DNA from: Smittium culicis
Lineage: Eukaryota; Kickxellomycota; Harpellomycetes; Harpellales; Legeriomycetaceae
Assembly (NCBI GenBank): GCA_001970855.1
Contig: LSSN01002900.1
Span: 1-13,938, forward strand
DNA length: 13,938 bases
Direction of reading: 5' to 3'
Of this stretch, positions 26 through 12,000 are shown piece by piece. The notes under the pieces are model-generated. The model was given only the letters and a program-made list of their open reading frames with translations, did not search any database and had not been told where the DNA came from. Position 1 is the stretch's first letter. Each line of letters starts with the position of its first letter. A program made the position numbers and the translations under genes.

Positions 26-655
26 ATGGCCATTACGAGGAGCAGAGCCTCAAACCCTGGCCAAAAAAACTCTAGCTCTGACAATGTTCTAATGCCCAAC
101 AAGGCTACTACTGCAACTAAACGAAAAATCAAGGAGCAGATATCAGATCAAGATCAAAAACCAGAAATTGAGAAAGTTCCTGAGCCAGAAACGAAAAAGG
201 CATCAAACGCAGAACAAGAGCAGGTACTAAAAGTAGAACAAAAGTCGGAAACTGTAGAGGCTGATTCTTCAGAAATTTCCCATAAAGCACCAAAAAAGCA
301 AAAGCAAAGCAATAAAAAAAAAACTTTGCCACCTAGCCCAAAGCAAATTAAAAGCGACTCTTCAGATGCAGATCTTCACCTCCAAACAAAGAATCTCGTA
401 TCCATCGAGCACTGCGTTAGCTGACGAGTATACAAGTCGAATGCTACTAATTTAGTAAAGCAGGTCGACGCCGAGTTTCCTGGTATCTTTACCTTTGAGC
501 TCAACAGTACCAAACCAAGATCAAAATCTTTTGAAGTCTCAATTTCGAACAAAACTCTATGGAGTGGCCTCAAGTTGGGTCCCCCAAGAAGGCTCAAGTT
601 CCCAGATCCTGAAACCATTTCAAAACTCTTCAAAGAATTTGTCTCGCAGCAATAA
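26..655 (+). CDS. SELENOH: Selenoprotein H-like protein (in-frame TGA read as selenocysteine)
   Basis: Thioredoxin-fold-like (Rdx family) redox protein. In animals SelH is a small nuclear/nucleolar protein with a CxxU active site and AT-hook-like basic tail, linked to redox and DNA-damage responses. The frame starts at ATG 26 in a good context (ttaccATGG), meets TGA at 422-424 and continues to TAA at 653-655, giving 209 residues with Sec at 133. The motif around the TGA reads SIEHCVSU (C130, U133). The part after the TGA carries the SelH hallmarks: NSTKPRSKSFEVSI, then LWSGLKLGPPRRLKFPDPE near the C-terminus. Homology therefore spans both sides of the TGA without an indel. Residues 1-120 are a low-complexity Lys/Glu/Ser-rich extension with basic clusters such as KKQKQSNKKK, a likely nuclear localisation signal. 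Animal SelH is about 122 aa, so this is longer. No intron is needed. UGA is followed by C, a weak termination context. Alternatives are a pseudogene with one stop, or ordinary readthrough. Confidence 0.9.
422..424 (+). other. Selenocysteine codon (TGA), residue 133 of the SelH-like protein
   Basis: The codon sits exactly where animal SelH has Sec, three residues after Cys130 (C-V-S-U). The same frame stays open on both sides with family-level similarity. The neighbouring SMC1 gene ends on TGA at the family's usual C-terminus, so TGA is not globally reassigned here. The base after TGA is C. Confidence 0.88.
436..469 (+). promoter_or_regulatory. Candidate recoding stem-loop just downstream of the Sec UGA
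   Basis: GTCGA (436-440) pairs with TCGAC (465-469), TGC (442-444) with GCA (460-462), and TACT (445-448) with AGTA (454-457). This gives about 12 base pairs, broken only by one unpaired base on the left and two 2-nt bulges on the right, with an AATTT apical loop. The stem begins 11 nt after the UGA. The pairing is seen directly. A role like a selenocysteine redefinition element (known from animal SelN) is inference, and chance pairing in coding sequence is possible. Confidence 0.5.
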
Positions 656-660
656 TAACA

Positions 661-721
661 CAATCTAAATCCAGCTACCTTTCTCGAGTCTATAGCCTCT
701 AGTTACCTATAGAGCGGATTG
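661..721 (+). promoter_or_regulatory. Stem-loop in the SelH 3' UTR, candidate non-canonical SECIS
   Basis: Starting 5 nt after the SelH stop codon, CAATC (661-665) can pair with GATTG (717-721); AATCC (668-672) with GGATT (716-720) is an alternative. TCTATAG (689-695) pairs perfectly with CTATAGA (707-713) around an 11-nt loop starting with CC. The canonical ATGA...AA...TGA core of a eukaryotic SECIS is absent. It could be a divergent SECIS, a 3'-end processing structure or chance. Confidence 0.35.
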
Positions 722-841
722 GTCATTTATTAGTTTATTTATATGACGACAATTTACTTTATAATCATTCCTCAATCCTCACGCTTTTCTTGGTTACTTT
801 CAGAATTTGGTGAGTATAAGGGTCTAATTCCAATGCATCTC

Positions 842-862
842 AAAAAAAAAAAATTTTTTTTT
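842..862. repeat. A12T9 homopolymer junction
   Basis: Twelve A (842-853) directly followed by nine T (854-862), between two convergent genes. Such poly(dA:dT) junctions are stiff, hairpin-capable and prone to sequencing length error. It may act in 3'-end formation for both genes. Confidence 0.7.
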
Positions 863-1120
863 AAAATGTTCTTTCAATGTTTTTTATATTTCTTCTTTAT
901 TTCAAAATCTCGGTTACTTAATTTGTGTAGAAAAAATAATTATTAAAAGACATATTTTTTAAAAAAAGGGTGCATAATTGCCTGATACAAATAATAAACT
1001 CAAAAAAATATAACTTAATCCATTTATATCAAAATTTCCACATATTTCAAGTCAATTATTCCAAAAAGCTCATAGCCATATTCGCCTTATCCCGTTCACC
1101 GTATAATCATATAATTTAGA

Positions 1121-1882
1121 CTAAGGGACTACACTTTCAATGTTCCATGTATTGGATTTCTTGTCGAGTGTGTAAATGTACCTAAGGTGTACCTTTTGAC
1201 TAAGATCACAATAGTCAACTCTATCCGCTTGCAAACATATAAGTCCGTAGTTTTGACAAACTGCTGAGGTACTAGTTCCCTCATTGGGAGTTTCAATGAC
1301 TGTATTATTGCTGCTTGAAACCTTTGATCCAGGTACAGGTCCATTGAACCATCTCTTTAAAGAATTGGAATGCTTCTCGTAAGTAATACTCAAAATATCG
1401 TTCTCAGTACCAACTATCTTGCTACTTTCATTTAAGTCCTCAATCCCTAAAAACGCCGCTGAAGGAACAGATGTTGAGCTGTCGTCGTTTTTTCCATTCC
1501 CGAAATACACCTCGCTAGCTGCTTTATCGATACCTAAAACAGAAGCAATTCCCCCAATTCGGAACTGCTCCATCGTCTCTGGGAAAAAAAATCCAACTTC
1601 GCAGAACTTGTTATGCTGTATCTCTCCCACTTTATCGGTCTTCAAATGCGTGCTGAAAACTAAATCGTCACATCCTTCTCCATTTCCACTACTACTACTG
1701 CCTGGCTGTACCGATCCCATAAATCCACGAAGAACTACCGCTCGAACTTTAGGTCTCAACTCGCTATTAACCGTCGCCAGATTACCCACAACAACGCTCC
1801 CGCCTCCTACAGTCTTCTCGGCTCTCTTCTTCAACGCATTCTTGAACAATTTCGACCAGCCACTAACAACAATTTCGCTCAT
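1121..1882 (-). CDS. Alr4036/PPOX-family FMN-binding protein (pyridoxamine 5'-phosphate oxidase-like)
   Basis: Intact single-exon gene of 253 residues, start codon at 1882-1880, stop TAG. The layout matches the pyridoxamine 5'-phosphate oxidase Alr4036-type flavin-binding domain known in fungi, plants and cyanobacteria. It opens with an N-terminal W-x3-F-x3-L helix (residues about 8-20) and NLATVNSELRPKVRAVVLRG, the first split-barrel strands, whose Arg residues normally contact FMN phosphate. Then come LVFSTHLKTDKVGEIQHNKF, EQFRIGGIA, RWFNGPVPGSK and a closing W-N-I-E-S-V-V-P, matching the family's typical W...(v)nP end. Several Ser/Gly-rich stretches (for example SSSSGNGEG) look like lineage-specific loop insertions. 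The exact substrate of this subfamily is not established, so vitamin B6 oxidation should not be assumed; a generic cytosolic flavin-dependent oxidoreductase is the safest call. It is divergent from SMC1 and may share its promoter region. Confidence 0.85.
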   Translation of the reverse strand: MSEIVVSGWSKLFKNALKKRAEKTVGGGSVVVGNLATVNSELRPKVRAVVLRGFMGSVQPGSSSSGNGEGCDDLVFSTHLKTDKVGEIQHNKFCEVGFFFPETMEQFRIGGIASVLGIDKAASEVYFGNGKNDDSSTSVPSAAFLGIEDLNESSKIVGTENDILSITYEKHSNSLKRWFNGPVPGSKVSSSNNTVIETPNEGTSTSAVCQNYGLICLQADRVDYCDLSQKVHLRYIYTLDKKSNTWNIESVVP

Positions 1883-2241: not shown

Positions 2242-5200
2242 ATGGGCCAACTCATTCAAATCGAAGTCGAGAATTTCAAATCTTACAAGGGCCATCAAAT
2301 TATTGGCCCTTTTGGCTCTTTCACTGCTATAATAGGTCCCAATGGTGCAGGTAATTATTCACTTGCCTTAAATCTACCTCTTTCGACCCTCCTATTTCCC
2401 TTTATTTCACCAACTTTTAATAAAAATATACTATACACCTTTACATTTTCTATTTGAACAAATACAGTTCATCACTTTATAATTATTCACTGCACCTTTT
2501 TTCAATAATTTCTTTATACGTATATTCTAGGAAAGAGCAATCTAATGGACGCTATCAGTTTTGTCCTGGGCGTTAAAAGCACCCACCTTCGTTCCACTCA
2601 ACTCAAAGAACTTCTTTACCATTCCCCGCATACTATGGGTCCGAATGAAATTATTAAAAAAGCCTCTGTCACAGTTGTTCTACAAGAAAATAACGCTGAT
2701 TTTCGCTTCAAAAGAAGGTAAAACCCATTTCTCTATATTACTTTTATTTATTACTATTTATACACTGAGTATACTATCGTATTCCTCCTTCTACACCCCT
2801 AATTCTTTTACTGTACTTTATTTCAGTATCACAGCTAGCGGAGGAAGTGAATACAGTATTAACGATAAACTAGTTTCTTTCCAAGATTATAAAGCACAGC
2901 TTGAAAAATTTCACATTATCACCAAAGCTAAAAACTTTCTCGTCTTCCAAGGTGACGTTGAAGCTATTGCTTCTCAATCCTCAGCCGATTTAACTGAGCT
3001 TATTGAAATTATGTCTGGGTAAGTACATATCACTCCACCCTATAATAATAATAATAAAAATAATAATTCTTCGGCCTTTTATCGTAAAATATAAAATTTT
3101 ACTTTGCCGTCTAAAATATTCTTATTGTATCAATTTCTAAATATTTAATTCATTATAAACAGCTCCATCGAATTCCGAAACGAATATGACATCCTAAAAA
3201 GAGAAGAAAAAAACGCAGCCGAACTTTCCAACTCTTCTTTTAACAAAAAAAGAGCAATTGCAGCTGAACTCAAAGCAGTTCTTAAACAAAAATCTGAACT
3301 TGAAACTTACGAGAAAAAAAAATCCGAGCTCGTTAAACTCAATGTAGAATATATGCTCTGGAAATTACTCCAACAGGACTCTAAAATCGATAAAGATAAT
3401 TCAGATATTGCCAATTTATCCTCCCAAATCTCATCCTTATCTTCTGAATCATCCACCGCTAACACTAATGTTGAGTCCCAAAGAAGATTCCAAGCTAAAG
3501 CTTTTAAAGACCTATCAAAAGCTGATAAAAATGTCAAGCTAATCGAAAAACAGCTCGAAGAAAATGTAAAGATCTTTTTTTTTTTTTTATAACTAAACTT
3601 TTTTATGTCACAGATAACCTTTTCGAAATTTACATTGTATATAAACCTAATTCTTATTAATAACCTTTTATTATTTTAAAAGCAACCGACACTTGTTGCA
3701 AATAAAGAGAAAGCTGATGCTATTAGCAAGAAAATTTCAATCTTGAACTCAAACATTGAAAGTTTATCTTCTGATTCTAAGCGCCAACGTAATATTGCTT
3801 CTAATATGGAAAATGATTTAAAAAAAATCATTTCTGCAAAAAATCGAAATCAAGGTTTAATCTCCTTTCTAATTTATTGTCTTTTTATATTTATCATTTT
3901 TTTTATGCTTCAAATTTTTTCATTATTAAATTTAATATAGAATCAATGGAGTCAAGTTTTGGTAAAAAGTATTTTAAAAGCCAATCTGACGAAGCGAATG
4001 CCATATCTGAATACTATATGCTCGAGTCTAGACTGAACACTGAAGTTCAGTCATTATCTCAACTATTAAACGATACTTCTCTAAAACTCTCTACAATGGA
4101 AATGAAAAAGTCTAGAGCTGAAGTAAAAAAAGATGAGTTATCAAAGCAACTATCTGAAAAGAAAGAACAGAAAAGAGCTTACAACACCCAGCTATCAGAA
4201 GCCAAATCAAGGCTTTCGGATTCTTCTTCAAACAAGGATAAATTGATTTCTGATATCGCAAAAACTAAAAAAAGTCACGAAAAAATAAAAGCTAAAGAGC
4301 TGGAAATTAATGAAAAACTTAAAATTATCCTCCAACAAATTTCCCAAACAAGAGCTATTGAAAACGAGTCAAAAAAAGAACGTAAAGATGCGGAAATTCT
4401 TGCTGCTCTAAAAAGACTTTTTAAAAATGTTTATGGCCGCATTTCTGAATTGTGCAAACCAACACAAAGAAAATACGAGCTTGCAGCTATTGTTACTTTC
4501 GGTAAATTTGCAGACGCTATCGTTGTTGACTCCCAACAAACTGCTATCGAGTGTATCCGTTATTTAAGGGAGCAAAGAGCCGGAAAAGCTACCTTTTTGC
4601 CCCTAGACTCACTCTCAAACAACTCTGTTAGCGATACTTTACGCCGCGCTCATCCTAATTCCAGACTGGTTATTGATGTTTTGGAATATGACTCAAAGTA
4701 CAGTCGCGCCATTTCCTTTGTTTGTGGCTCAAACATTGTTTGTGATACTCTTGAAGTTGCCCGTGAGCTTTGCTACAATAGAAACTTGTCCGTCAAGGCC
4801 ATCACACTAGATGGATCTGTTATTCATAAAAGTGGTAATATCACTGGTGGTACCTTCTCAAAAACCGGCTCATTAAAGTCCAACCTTGATAAATGGGAAA
4901 GAGGTAGCATTAACTCCTTAATAAAAACTCGCGATGAATTGACAATCTCTTTGAATAAGCTCACTAAAGAAAGAAATTTCTCTCATTTGATTGAAAATTT
5001 GGAAATCCAGCTAGCTGACGCTGAAACTCAATACCTTTCTTCAAATGACAACTTGCTCCGAATCAATAGATGGCTTGAATCTTGCAGCGTTGAGTCTAAA
5101 AACTTAGAAAGACAATTAGATGTTGTTGATGATGAGCTTGAATTATTATCATCTGAGATTTCGTCTCTCAATAATGAGCTATCAAAGGCATCCAGTAAAT

Positions 5201-6690
5201 TCAATAAAGCTTCAGAACCTGTTTTCCGTGAATTTTGTTCTAAATACAATTTCTCTTCAATTGATGAATTCAATTCAATTATCGAAAACAAAAAGAAATT
5301 ATCAAAAAAGCAACTTGAATTCGATAACCACATATCCAAGCTGGAAAATCAGATTCTTTTCGAGCATGAACAACTCGAAATCATAAATAACGACAAATCT
5401 CGCAAACAAAGCTTGCTAAACCAAGTTAACGAGGACTTGATCGCAACTCAAGCTGAGATTCAAGCCCTTGAATCTACCTTGAGCTCACAAATAAAACAAT
5501 TGTCTAAACTCCGTAAAGCCCACAATGATTTGCAATCAAGCTTTAACTCTGAATCTAACAAGCTAACAGAAGCTAGAAACCTTTATGCGGATTTAACTTC
5601 TTCGCTGGATGTTGTTACTAAGTCAAAATCTGTCAAAGAAACTGAACTTGCCAAATCACTCGATAAAAAGCTCGCTATATTACGTAAATGCCGCCTTGAA
5701 AGTATCAATATTCCGCTAAAATCTGGCACTCTTACCTCGGTTCCAATTTCGCTAGCAAATATTTCTACAAGACCAGACGGCATTAGCGAATCTTCTCTTG
5801 TAAACAATCCTGTTCATAATATAAAGCCTGACTATTCTTCATTACCACAATCCTCTAGAGCAAAATTAAACTCTAAAAATATCTCTGATCCTAATTCAGA
5901 AGAAGCAAGAGAAATTGAGTTTCTTGAAACTAGCTACAGCTCCAAAATTGCTTCAATTAATTTTGAATTGAGTTCAATGGCACCTATTTCTCACGCACGT
6001 GAAAAATTAAATGCACTACAACAAAAATTAGAAGATTCCGATAAGGAATTCGCCAATCTCAGAAATGTTGCAAAAAATGTACATGCTCGTTTTTCAGTCG
6101 TTAAAAAATCCCGCCACGAGCTTTTCACAAAAATGTACCAACACATCAGCCAGTCAATTGACAAATTTTACAAAATCTTGACCAAATCAAATATGTTTCC
6201 AATTGGCGGAACGGCCTATTTAAACTTGGAAAATAATGAAGAACCATATTTGGGCGGAGTCAAGTATCACGCTATGCCGCCATTGAAACGTTTTAGAGAC
6301 ATGGAACTGCTTAGTGGAGGAGAGAAAACTGTTGCAGCACTAGCTCTTCTGTTTGCACTTCAATCATACTTACCATCGCCTTTCTTTGTTCTTGACGAGG
6401 TTGATGCTGCTCTTGATTTAGCTAACGTTGTTCAATTGGCAAACTATTTACGCCTCCGTTCTTCGCAAACCCAGCTTACTGCCCCAGGTGATGAAAATGA
6501 AATTACTTCAGAAAAGAATTCAAGAAAATCTAAAGGCAAGAAACCTGACCCTTCAAACTTTCAATTCATCGTTATCTCCTTAAAACAACCGCTATACGAG
6601 CGTGCAGGAACCTTGGTTGGCATATATAAAGACCAACAAAGCAACAGCTCAAAAACTCTCACTCTTGATCTCAATCAATACCCAGAATGA
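2242..6690 (+). CDS. SMC1: Structural maintenance of chromosomes protein 1 (cohesin subunit SMC1), six exons
   Basis: ATPase core subunit of cohesin. It pairs with SMC3 at the hinge and with the kleisin at the heads to hold sister chromatids together in the nucleus. Exons by my splicing: 2242-2350, 2531-2717, 2827-3018, 3163-3565, 3683-3854 and 3941-6690, giving 3813 nt and 1270 residues (animal SMC1 is about 1230). It begins [17 protein letters not shown], as SMC1 proteins do. Walker A GPNGAGKS is at 32-39 and [12 protein letters not shown] follows in the N-lobe. Coiled coil runs to about 510, the hinge is about 514-660 (YGRISELC to NITGGTF), and the second coiled coil runs to about 1100. 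[15 protein letters not shown] precedes the signature LLSGGEK (LSGGE at 1145-1149); Walker B FFVLDEVD is at 1169-1176. The H-loop region FIVISLK begins at 1230, and the C-terminus [10 protein letters not shown] is SMC1-specific rather than SMC2, SMC3 or SMC4. About 30 residues between Walker B and the H-loop region are a basic low-complexity insert. Stop is TGA. Confidence 0.97.
2351..2530 (+). other. SMC1 intron 1
   Basis: 180 bp, GTAATT donor and TTCTAG acceptor. It splits the Gly37 codon inside Walker A (GPNGA-G-KS). Splicing restores the universally conserved GKSN sequence, which fixes both ends with confidence. Confidence 0.95.
2718..2826 (+). other. SMC1 intron 2
   Basis: 109 bp, GTAAAA donor and TTTCAG acceptor, with a CTAAT branch-site-like motif at 2799-2803, 24 nt before the acceptor. 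Joining gives [20 protein letters not shown], matching the SMC1 family. Confidence 0.93.
3019..3162 (+). other. SMC1 intron 3
   Basis: 144 bp, with a perfect GTAAGT donor and an AACAG acceptor. It contains a short TAA/TAAA microsatellite around 3041-3065. Joining gives [15 protein letters not shown], as expected for the family. Confidence 0.94.
3566..3682 (+). other. SMC1 intron 4
   Basis: 117 bp, GTAAAG donor followed closely by a T-run, and an AAAAG acceptor. A CTAAT branch-like motif is at 3647-3651. It falls between codons in the first coiled coil, where sequence conservation is weak, so the exact acceptor is less certain than for introns 1-3. Confidence 0.82.
3855..3940 (+). other. SMC1 intron 5
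   Basis: 86 bp, with a weaker GTTTAA donor and an ATATAG acceptor. The reading frames of exons 5 and 6 differ, and the exon-5 frame meets a stop at 3938-3940, so splicing is required. Joining gives [14 protein letters not shown]. Confidence 0.85.
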
Positions 6691-9005: not shown

Positions 9006-10033
9006 GATTCAAGTTTTAATGAAAAAAATTATATTGATAGATGCTTTTATTGAGCTTATATAAAACTATTCTTAATGATAATTGAATAATTTATTTGAAA
9101 TTAATATTCAAAATTTATGAAATTGAATAAATAAATTCATAATTGATTAAATGAATAAACGATTATTTACAATCAAAAAATTTCGTTCCTTAAATTTTCA
9201 ACTCGTTGAATTATAAAATATTTATATTATTTTAATCATACCAACCATATTTATTTTTTTATTTATCATAATTAGTTATTTATTTTTTATATTATTTTAT
9301 TTTATTATCAGATGTTAATTACTTATTTAAAATGGTTTTTTTATCTTATCTAAAATATAGTATTATTTTTGACATTAACAAGCATAAATCAATTTTCAAT
9401 TGATTTTATCTGTAATCCATTTAAATTTTTATGCTACTTAAATAAGAATATAAATATATTCTCTAATTATTGTATTCTTATTATCATTTGTATAAATTAA
9501 AATTATTTTAATAGTATTGCAGAAATATTATGTAATCACATACAGAAAAAATTCTAGCATACTACTTCAAAATATAATGTAATCAAAAAAAAATATTGAA
9601 AGCAGTAAAATTAGACAATAGCTTTTAGTTAAAATCATAATTATCAAATATTTCTTATTTTCTTATTTTTTTAATTTGAAATTTGAAAATTATTTTTAAA
9701 TATTTTAAAAGCATTTAAATAAAATCCTCAAAAAAAATATGACTTTTAATTCATATTTCAGAATTTGAGATGTATAAAATTCGAAATAAGGATAAAAAAA
9801 TCTTGATTTTTTCAATAATTTACTTTAGATATCAGTAAATATGTATCAGTTATACGTATATATTCTCAATCATATCAGGCTCTCATTAATTCATATTATA
9901 TGAGGAAAGAAGACATATTAAGGGTTATTATTTTATTTTATAAAAATAAACAGAAAATATAAAGCCAATATATATAAGTGGATTAAAATTAAATATAAAA
10001 AAATCTTCTGTATTAACTTTGAAGTAATCGTTA

Positions 10034-10049
10034 GTGATATACTTATCAC
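10034..10049. repeat. Small inverted repeat beside the recombinase relic
   Basis: GTGATA, loop TACT, TATCAC. It lies at the edge of the GC-richer island and may belong to the end of the decayed mobile element, but this cannot be shown from one copy. Confidence 0.5.
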
Positions 10050-10089
10050 GTTTCGGAAAATGTGAAATGGGTAAGGGTGGATGGCACTT

Positions 10090-10180
10090 AATATTTCTCC
10101 TCTCCTCGTATAATATGAATTAATCGAACTCTAAAGAGCTCGATTAATTGTTACGTTATACTTCAGAGAGGGAAAATATT
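10090..10180. repeat. 91-nt long imperfect palindrome following the recombinase stop
   Basis: The two roughly 45-nt arms pair in blocks: AATATTT, CCTCTC, GTATAA, AATTAATCGA and CTCT on the left match their complements on the right, with small mismatched gaps and a 2-nt centre at 10133-10134. On the - strand it begins 3 nt after the recombinase stop codon (10186-10184). It may be the element's terminal structure, a transcription terminator, a foldback element or a source of small hairpin RNA. Confidence 0.85.
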
Positions 10181-10183
10181 TTG

Positions 10184-11334
10184 TTAATTCAGATTTAAAA
10201 TCGACTTAGTCAAGTTAATCGAAGGATTTCTTGCGAGTCCATAATATTTATCAAAGATTGAATATTCTGAACAAAATGCATGTAATAATATTTCATCTGA
10301 TGACGCCCCTGAGTTTGTAGTTAGTGTCGCATCTATTTCTCTACCCTTTGGTATGAGTGCATTCGGATCGCGGTGTATCATATCTGAAATAGATATGATT
10401 TTTTTGGCTATACTATCAACTGATAGTGGTTTTGAGCTAAATTTAATTAACCTAAACAGCTAATTAACATTCCATTTGTTTTTATTATCTGGTGTTGGAT
10501 AAATTTTAGCCACTATATTTTCTTTATTAACAGATAATACTAATACTGGGCATAAAATAGTATCGGTTTGAGAGCTTATCTCGAAAGTTTTTTGTATTTG
10601 GAGGCCACTTCGTTTTTTTTTTCTTCTTGGTGCTGCATATACTAAATTTAGCATCTCTAGGCTTACTTGGTTGCGTTTATCATCTATTTTATGGATATCG
10701 AAGGCTCTAAGAAACCCTGTAACTGATAAAAACCAGAATTTTTAGTGGTGAATTATTTAAATAGTGACTCTCTTAAGGGACCTTATTTCTTCAGCAGAAC
10801 CAGAACTGGTGAGATGTCGATTACCCGTATAAAAAAGGATATAATTTAAGCATTTTCCAATGATCTTGTGAATTCCAAAAACATTTGTTGATTTGATACA
10901 TTATTTCATTTTACCGCTATTCTTAGGAGTGCAGATTTATAAGGCTTTTTTGAGCCTAATTTCAGTTTTTCTACTATGTATATCTCTTCTAGGTAGTTTA
11001 TTATTTGGGAACTGAAATTTCAGCGGTTATCCCCTTTGAGATTCTTCAGTATAAAAATCGCTTTTGTACATAACTATGCCTAAAATACCGTCTGGAATTT
11101 CTTTTTTATTTTTGTTATGGATAAAGTGAATTGAGTAATTACTGAGGCCTTGGGATTCGAGGAAACGCCTCTAATCCTTTAATAAATCAAGATCCAATGT
11201 TTTTTTTTCTATAGCAGGAACTTTCCGCTTTTTAAATTCGGTATGATCGTCTTTGTTTGTCGAAGGAACGGTGTGAGACTGGAAGGATAATAGGTTCCGA
11301 AAAAAAACGGAAATTTCTAAATTTTTTTCACCAG
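10184..11334 (-). pseudogene. Tyrosine recombinase/integrase relic, frameshifted
   Basis: Catalyses DNA strand exchange for integration of DIRS- or Crypton-like elements when intact. Three pieces are visible. The N-terminal part (11334-11030) includes FLESQGLSNYSIHFI, like the SAM-like helices of YR elements, with a TAG at 11173-11171 and a stop at 11029-11027. A middle part (about 10835-10742) carries VIDISPVLVLL and PLRESLFK in another frame, with stops. The catalytic part (10741-10184) has SVTGFLRAFDIHKIDD (first catalytic Arg), LNLVYAAPRRKKK (basic beta-strand region), DTILCPVLVL, LIPKGREIDATL (second Arg box) and SIFDKYYGLARN (candidate Tyr nucleophile). That last part is one frame interrupted only by TAG at 10462-10460. 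Cys stands where many relatives have Trp (AFCSEYS). The family call rests on motif recall rather than a search. Multiple lesions mean it is not functional. Confidence 0.68.
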
Positions 11335-11997
11335 TTACTGTTGCTCGTTCTCATAAAAATTTCTGAACTATCTGAAATATCAGGTTCTATGGCGGGTGTC
11401 TGTATGGGCTGGTGAACCAGGAACAATTTTAGGCATGTACATTCAGAAATAATGCCGTATTGTCTGGGAAAATGCGCAATTAAGCTTCCACCTTCTTTTT
11501 TCAGACAGGTTGCGAACATTTCTACTTCTTGTTGGCTATAAGGTGAATTCAGTGTTTTGTATTCCTCCAGTGATATAGAATATTTGACTTTCTCGGTCAG
11601 TCAACTAGGCGCATCTGCATTAATGATCAGCTACGGTAGATAGGTGACCTGAGATCTGGTATTCGTTTCCAGACAGCATGTCCAGATCTTATTGCTATTA
11701 AGAGAGTTTCCGGGAAATTTTTTCCTCCAAATTTTCTTACATACTCAAGAGCGGTTGTGATAGTTGTATAGACAAACTCTGATTGACCGAAAAAGATGTT
11801 GAGTTTGAGTGTTTAAAATGTTTTGAGCAGTTTTTTTTGCTTTTATTTGTATTTTAGCCTCGATTGGATTTCATGATCCTGAAATAAATTTGTGTTCTTC
11901 CTTATGGCACCTTTCGGTATGAGTTTCTGTACCATATCAGTTAATATTTTGAGTTTTTCTTGGTCCAATGTAGCTTGATTTTATCTTTTTGATCCAT
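11329..11997 (-). pseudogene. Decayed N-terminal/Gag-like region upstream of the recombinase
   Basis: Starting at an ATG at 11997-11995 (MDQKDK), successive frames look like one broken protein. The first is TLDQEKLKILTDMVQKLIPK, then a shifted IEAKIQIKAKKTAQNILN. Next comes an open segment at 11812-11630 (FFGQSEFVYTT to KRIPDLRSPIYRS, stop 11629-11627). Another segment then runs to a stop at 11330-11328 (VKYSISLEEYKTLNSPY to IFMRTSNSNW) and includes the 63-residue open frame at 11519-11328. I recognise no domain. Its position before the recombinase, in the same orientation and with the same base composition, suggests it was the N-terminal half of one long ORF of roughly 600 residues or a separate Gag-like protein. 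Confidence 0.45.
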
Positions 11998-12000
11998 AGA

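Follow-up and report, generated by a model that had tools for sequence, protein, structure and literature searches.

Does the TGA inside a selenoprotein H (SelenoH) reading frame of the insect-gut fungus Smittium culicis encode selenocysteine (Sec), or is it a nonsense mutation, part of an intron or a codon with another meaning? The frame lies near the start of contig LSSN01002900.1 (assembly GCA_001970855.1); the window is the whole stretch of this contig that was analysed, 13,938 nucleotides (nt) of the forward strand. A preliminary description of this DNA assigned it to a probable fungus and pointed to Harpellales-type fungi as one lineage with reported selenoproteins; S. culicis does belong to the Harpellales. 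Sequence comparisons indicate with high confidence that positions 26-655 are a selenoprotein H gene, whose in-frame TGA is likely decoded as Sec by machinery that the genome encodes at least in part. The features of this gene are as follows.

26..655, + strand: SelenoH coding sequence, with stop codon TAA at 653-655; start and end agree with the public S. culicis protein P0002
398..631, + strand: Rdx domain with a thioredoxin-like fold, residues 125-202
413..424, + strand: redox motif C-V-S-U (CxxU), adjoining the start of a predicted helix (residues 134-150)
422..424, + strand: in-frame TGA, the predicted Sec codon, residue 133; also kept in a second haplotype contig

Selenoprotein H and its in-frame TGA

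Translation of 26..655 (+) yields 209 residues when the TGA is read through, and this TGA is the only one in the frame, as the preliminary description had stated for codon 133. That description also saw SelH-type sequence on both sides of the codon and proposed a profile search of the 209-residue translation. This search matches Pfam Rdx (PF10262) across the TGA (residues 125-202; E-value: 4.2e-8; 33.7 bits against a cut-off of 22.6), in agreement with the claim. The profile is weak on the SelenoH family, matching 12 of 22 members at an E-value of 0.01, and two relatives that keep the TGA stretch also miss the cut-off (17.5 bits in one, no match in the other). A search of the S. culicis genome with the same profile is insensitive, as it gave zero matches and missed even the window gene. 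The predicted structure has the thioredoxin-like fold that is expected of SelenoH as a member of the Rdx family. A GPPR[RK]LKFP segment, presumably defining for SelenoH, is common to the window protein and the Selenoprotein H of Portunus and Acropora. The N-terminal part is lysine-rich and is modelled at a predicted local distance difference test score (pLDDT) of about 50. A basic nuclear motif (RKRK) and an AT-hook in this part are named as SelenoH features in one source (PMC10650576); neither was identified by eye in the S. culicis protein, for which no motif search was run. No relatives were found in the contigs of prokaryote genomes.

The frame translation and an alignment with relatives place the TGA at the Sec position of the CxxU motif. 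All 37 relatives were counted at this site: 20 have C-x-S-W, three have CxxC, three have a cysteine at 133 but none at 130, one has serine, nine have no residue and one (P0033) is misaligned, which bears out the earlier assignment of the TGA to the Sec position. Alignment A2 used three of five sequences; alignment A3, made for the fold, used the query and 21 of the 37 relatives, leaving out P0002, P0003, P0008, P0013 and P0027-P0038. The tryptophan at the Sec position is seen in P0004-P0012 and P0014-P0024. Judged from the protein sequences, it is most likely a TGA that gene callers read as tryptophan. One sign of this is that P0018 (tryptophan) is identical, after the site in the alignment segments compared, to the protein P0029 of Acropora, from which the stretch is missing. 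Databases may thus hold many hidden selenoproteins annotated with CxxW. Proteins of other fungi are among the relatives. P0025 of Piptocephalis cylindrospora has CxxC, and P0033 of Syncephalis fuscata is a SelenoH-like model that lacks the redox-motif stretch, where a skipped Sec codon would sit; P0033 might itself be a fungal selenoprotein hidden by its annotation.

The gene is also present on contig C2495 (27088-27714). In this second copy the TGA is the same, the protein is 100% identical, and the DNA differs by a single synonymous change at 406. Over 2081 bases, C2495 matches the window contig at 98.9% identity, and the two look like haplotypes. A lone sequencing error at the TGA, of the kind that the preliminary description had named as a possible refutation, is unlikely because this second contig has the same gene and the same TGA.

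Selenocysteine machinery and the meaning of TGA

The genome was searched for Sec machinery in an assembly of 56.3 Mb and 2529 contigs. Two published S. culicis assemblies measure 77.1 and 71.1 Mb (PMC5954228, Table 1); the assembly searched therefore seems incomplete and absences from it are weak evidence. A tRNA-Sec with anticodon TCA is encoded on C205 (58.3 bits against a cut-off of 47; Rfam and ARAGORN), while the other four of the five tRNA-Sec matches fall below the cut-off. SepSecS is represented on C2478 by five exon pieces, all above the cut-off (best E-value: 5.5e-42). Selenophosphate synthetase (SPS) is represented on C1608 by three selD exon pieces (E-values: 2e-8 to 9e-4), each under the whole-protein cut-off. 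Upstream of these, the frame reads FRLTKYSGLKG-TGA-GCK and then splices to VSREDL over an intron of 129 nt (GTATGT...TAG). LKG-U-GCK is taken here to be the motif at which SPS2 proteins carry Sec, and this gene is the second putative selenoprotein gene of the genome:

C1608, 1724-3364 (L025 coordinates): SPS2 gene with an in-frame TGA at its Sec site, 1805-1807

According to one survey, eukaryotic SPS is generally a selenoprotein and SPS2 is a marker of Sec use (PMC4561486). A 317-residue frame on C868 is a probable PSTK by sequence: its best NCBIfam match is PSTK (E-value: 6.7e-8) and its best PDB matches are PSTK (E-values: 0.0012 and 0.0021), presumably archaeal, while its best Pfam match is the KTI12 family (E-value: 2.9e-7). 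The reading of the TGA as a Sec codon, proposed in the preliminary description, is thus supported at this level by the Sec site, the two haplotypes, tRNA-Sec, SepSecS and the TGA-bearing SPS2. Of the machinery that the description had listed for a search, tRNA-Sec, SepSecS, SPS2 and a probable PSTK are present, but EFSec and SBP2 were not found.

Several results weigh against decoding as Sec, in addition to the SECIS searches discussed below. The PSTK match of the C868 frame is far below the curated cut-off. For EFSec, 23 selB matches on 20 contigs of the incomplete assembly were all read as other GTPases; a motif pattern matched an eIF5B-like gene only, a human EFSec query matched a subset of the same GTPase genes, and a PF21208 search gave one chance match (E-value: 0.56). 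No SBP2 was recognised among the five L7Ae matches in this assembly. Lastly, an older survey, made before 2019, covered 284 fungal genomes and found neither SPS2 nor selenoproteins in them (PMC4561486).

The rejected EFSec candidates were assigned by eye from their translations, under names that are presumed. They comprise mitochondrial EF-Tu (C749, C1276), eEF1A (C2078), eRF3 (C347, C1007), HBS1 (C1057), mitochondrial IF2 (C614), eIF5B (C65), eIF2-gamma (C1835, C1565), GTPBP1-like (C865, C1228), Snu114-like (C55), Ria1-like (C1683), TypA-like (C2399), eEF2 (C1218), mitochondrial EF-G-like (C64) and Bms1-like proteins (C521, C2465, C2470). Frames on C695 that resemble a LINE-type (long interspersed nuclear element) reverse transcriptase by eye lie beside the chance EFSec-domain match. 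The SBP2 candidates look like eS12 (C124), NHP2 (C950) and two eL8 exons (C350), and the fifth is a short frame on C2270.

The in-frame TGAs of two genes, SelenoH and SPS2, could also be explained by reassignment of TGA to an ordinary amino acid in the nuclear genome. One other gene was counted in this regard:

2242..6690, + strand: SMC-family gene (SMC1-like), with five introns placed by eye, ending with TGA

This gene, presumably SMC1 rather than another SMC, has no TGA among the 1270 sense codons of its spliced frame and TGA as its terminal codon. Because it ends with TGA, its sequence indicates that TGA is a normal stop in this genome and that the code is not reassigned. Moreover, both in-frame TGAs lie at the Sec sites of their families, and reassignment is barely credible. 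A pseudogene in which the TGA is a plain nonsense mutation would agree with the lack of a recognised SECIS for the SelenoH gene. However, the TGA stands at the exact Sec position of an otherwise intact SelenoH frame. It is conserved in both haplotypes, whose copies differ by one synonymous change, and SPS2 likewise contains a TGA where its family has Sec. Loss of function by mutation is accordingly a highly improbable account of this codon.

Sec use in fungi was reportedly described by Mariotti et al. in 2019 (Nat Microbiol 4:759), whose abstract is said to state that most fungal selenoproteins lack a consensus SECIS and have other RNA structures. Nine fungal species are stated to use Sec (PMC10778597), seven of the nine being Harpellales (PMC10386755), and SelenoH and Sec machinery are described as common to the Harpellales and expressed in Zancudomyces culisetae (PMC12611240). 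The SelenoH of Harpellales fungi is the closest known system (same gene family, same order, Sec machinery in the genome), and no difference from it was shown. Among the papers searched, none pairs Smittium culicis with a selenoprotein, and none pairs the phrase fungal selenoproteins with SECIS. A finding of this kind is not new, and the same gene has probably been reported before. The analysis confirms independently, starting from the raw sequence, that the Sec trait persists in a fungus of the Harpellales, where two genes have a TGA at the Sec site.

The stretch omitted by the public gene model

P0002, the public 'Selenoprotein H' of S. culicis, matches the window protein letter for letter apart from 16 residues that it lacks, 131-146 (V-S-U-R-V-Y-K-S-N-A-T-N-L-V-K-Q). 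Comparison of P0001 and P0002 with the DNA locates the omitted stretch:

416..463, + strand: 48 nt left out as an intron by the public model (GTTAGC...CAG), containing the TGA

The preliminary description had expected gene callers to truncate the gene at the TGA or miss the codon. The public model does miss it, but there is no truncation, as the codon is skipped by means of this 48-nt 'intron'.

If 416-463 were a real intron, the TGA would be spliced out as in the public model. The stretch has GT...AG ends and, by eye, a TACTAAT-like branch site, and its removal preserves the frame. However, it encodes the Sec residue 133, which completes the redox couple of the family, together with 13 of the 17 residues that make up helix 1 in the predicted fold, and relatives have C-x-S-W (20 of 37) or CxxC (3 of 37) at the redox site. 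The Rdx score drops from 33.7 bits to 15.3 when it is left out; the two public S. culicis models, which lack the TGA stretch, thus have 15.3 and 16.6 bits, both under the cut-off of 22.6. The five introns placed in the neighbouring SMC gene are longer, at 180, 109, 144, 117 and 86 nt, and four of the five have GTA donors. The other S. culicis model, P0003 (77% identical), drops a different but overlapping stretch near the same place. Skipping of the UGA is described as a common flaw in vertebrate selenoprotein annotation (PMC12822975). A genuine intron here is very unlikely, and on the sequence the public model most likely leaves out the TGA wrongly. The public annotation thereby hides the Sec trait, in a model that is named Selenoprotein H yet has no selenocysteine.

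Candidate signals for Sec insertion

Animal SelenoH mRNAs carry a Sec insertion sequence (SECIS) in the 3' untranslated region (UTR). The S. culicis gene resembles animal SelenoH in its CxxU-type site, its GPPR[RK]LKFP segment and its lysine-rich N-terminal part, but differs in that no SECIS was recognised. Three features are relevant here.

656..1120, + strand: 3' flank up to the convergent neighbour, 465 bases, in which no consensus SECIS was recognised
1121..1882, - strand: convergent neighbour, a pyridoxamine 5'-phosphate oxidase-like protein
436..469, + strand: predicted RNA hairpin (34 nt, 13 pairs, -10.3 kcal/mol) with an 11-nt spacer behind the TGA, a candidate Sec redefinition element (SRE)

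Owing to the convergent gene, the SelenoH 3' UTR is limited to about 465 bases unless the transcripts overlap. Rfam searches at E-values up to 10 found no SECIS in 1-2300 and none behind SPS2. A search with RF00031 across the whole assembly found no SECIS either; it scored 133 of 936 candidates, and no positive control genome matched. A purpose-built SECIS scanner, in a second version with changed filters, gave no candidate in 656-1120, although at least one arose in 43 of 100 mononucleotide shuffles. The same version gave one unstable candidate in 656-2200, and 11 behind SPS2 that are not claimed as SECIS. The first version had given three candidates in 656-1500, only one of which has the AA/CC feature, at 1197, inside the neighbouring gene. 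The scanner's sole positive control, which it found, was one mammalian SECIS; it may miss fungal ones.

The hairpin behind the TGA has some statistical support. In a dinucleotide-shuffle scan of 1-1120, 431-510 ranks first among 105 windows of 80 nt (z = -3.24), as does 431-540 among 102 windows of 110 nt, while folding of 690-790 in the 3' flank is no better than that of shuffles (z = -0.71). Compared with synonymous-codon shuffles, the 86 nt that follow the TGA reach z = -2.79, with 0.4% of 1500 as stable; none of 1500 is as stable as the hairpin itself, which was chosen after being seen. Other results speak against the hairpin. The best of 107 60-nt windows is 11-70, away from it; the window 405-490 is unremarkable (z = +0.29); 36-, 48- and 60-nt windows are most extreme at about 290-349; and once the choice of the best 80-nt window across the whole gene is corrected for, 6.7% of 150 shuffles do as well. 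Among controls from the SMC exon, one of 89 windows of 86 nt and two of 90 windows of 48 nt reach values as extreme, and 17 of 2711 34-mers have a fold as stable as the hairpin. The SPS2 mRNA has no significant structure behind its own TGA (17-27% of 1000 shuffles as stable). As the windows elsewhere, the gene-wide correction and the SMC and SPS2 controls weaken the statistics, the hairpin is a lead and not a finding.

SREs behind the UGA are described as promoting recoding in SEPN1, and one survey reports stem-loops at the corresponding place in its SPS genes with UGA (PMC4561486). The S. culicis hairpin resembles the SREs of SEPN1 and SPS2 as a stem-loop that lies within the coding sequence shortly after the UGA, but differs in having no comparative support and in that SPS2 of the same genome lacks significant structure. 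That Sec insertion into SelenoH is directed by this hairpin, 12-45 nt behind the UGA and within the coding sequence, and not by a SECIS in the 3' UTR, is unlikely. If true, a bacterial-style local Sec signal would operate in a eukaryote. Through the hairpin, one answer to how Sec is directed in a fungal mRNA that lacks a recognisable SECIS becomes testable.

The hairpin could instead promote insertion of a near-cognate amino acid by readthrough of the UGA, a mechanism suggested for the SPS1-UGA genes of Hymenoptera, and HRE and SRE elements provide a precedent (PMC4561486). However, the S. culicis genome keeps tRNA-Sec, SepSecS and a TGA-bearing SPS2, and SPS2 genes accompany selenoproteins in the eukaryotes of that survey (PMC4561486). 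Such readthrough is thus a most improbable alternative to decoding of the UGA as Sec.

The proposed model for Sec decoding in S. culicis is as follows. Ser-tRNA(Sec) would be phosphorylated by PSTK, and the product converted to Sec-tRNA(Sec) by SepSecS using selenophosphate from SPS2. EFSec and an SBP2-like factor, neither of which was found in the contigs searched, would deliver Sec-tRNA(Sec) to the UGA. The best candidate mark for this codon would be the hairpin just behind it in the coding sequence, as the 3' flank has no recognisable SECIS. The predicted product is a nuclear thiol-selenol oxidoreductase of thioredoxin-like fold, with its Cys-x-x-Sec couple at the start of helix 1.

Behind the SMC gene, the window continues as an AT-rich, gene-poor stretch. 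Within it, part of 10000-12000 is less AT-rich by eye and has short broken frames, and is possibly a decayed mobile element.
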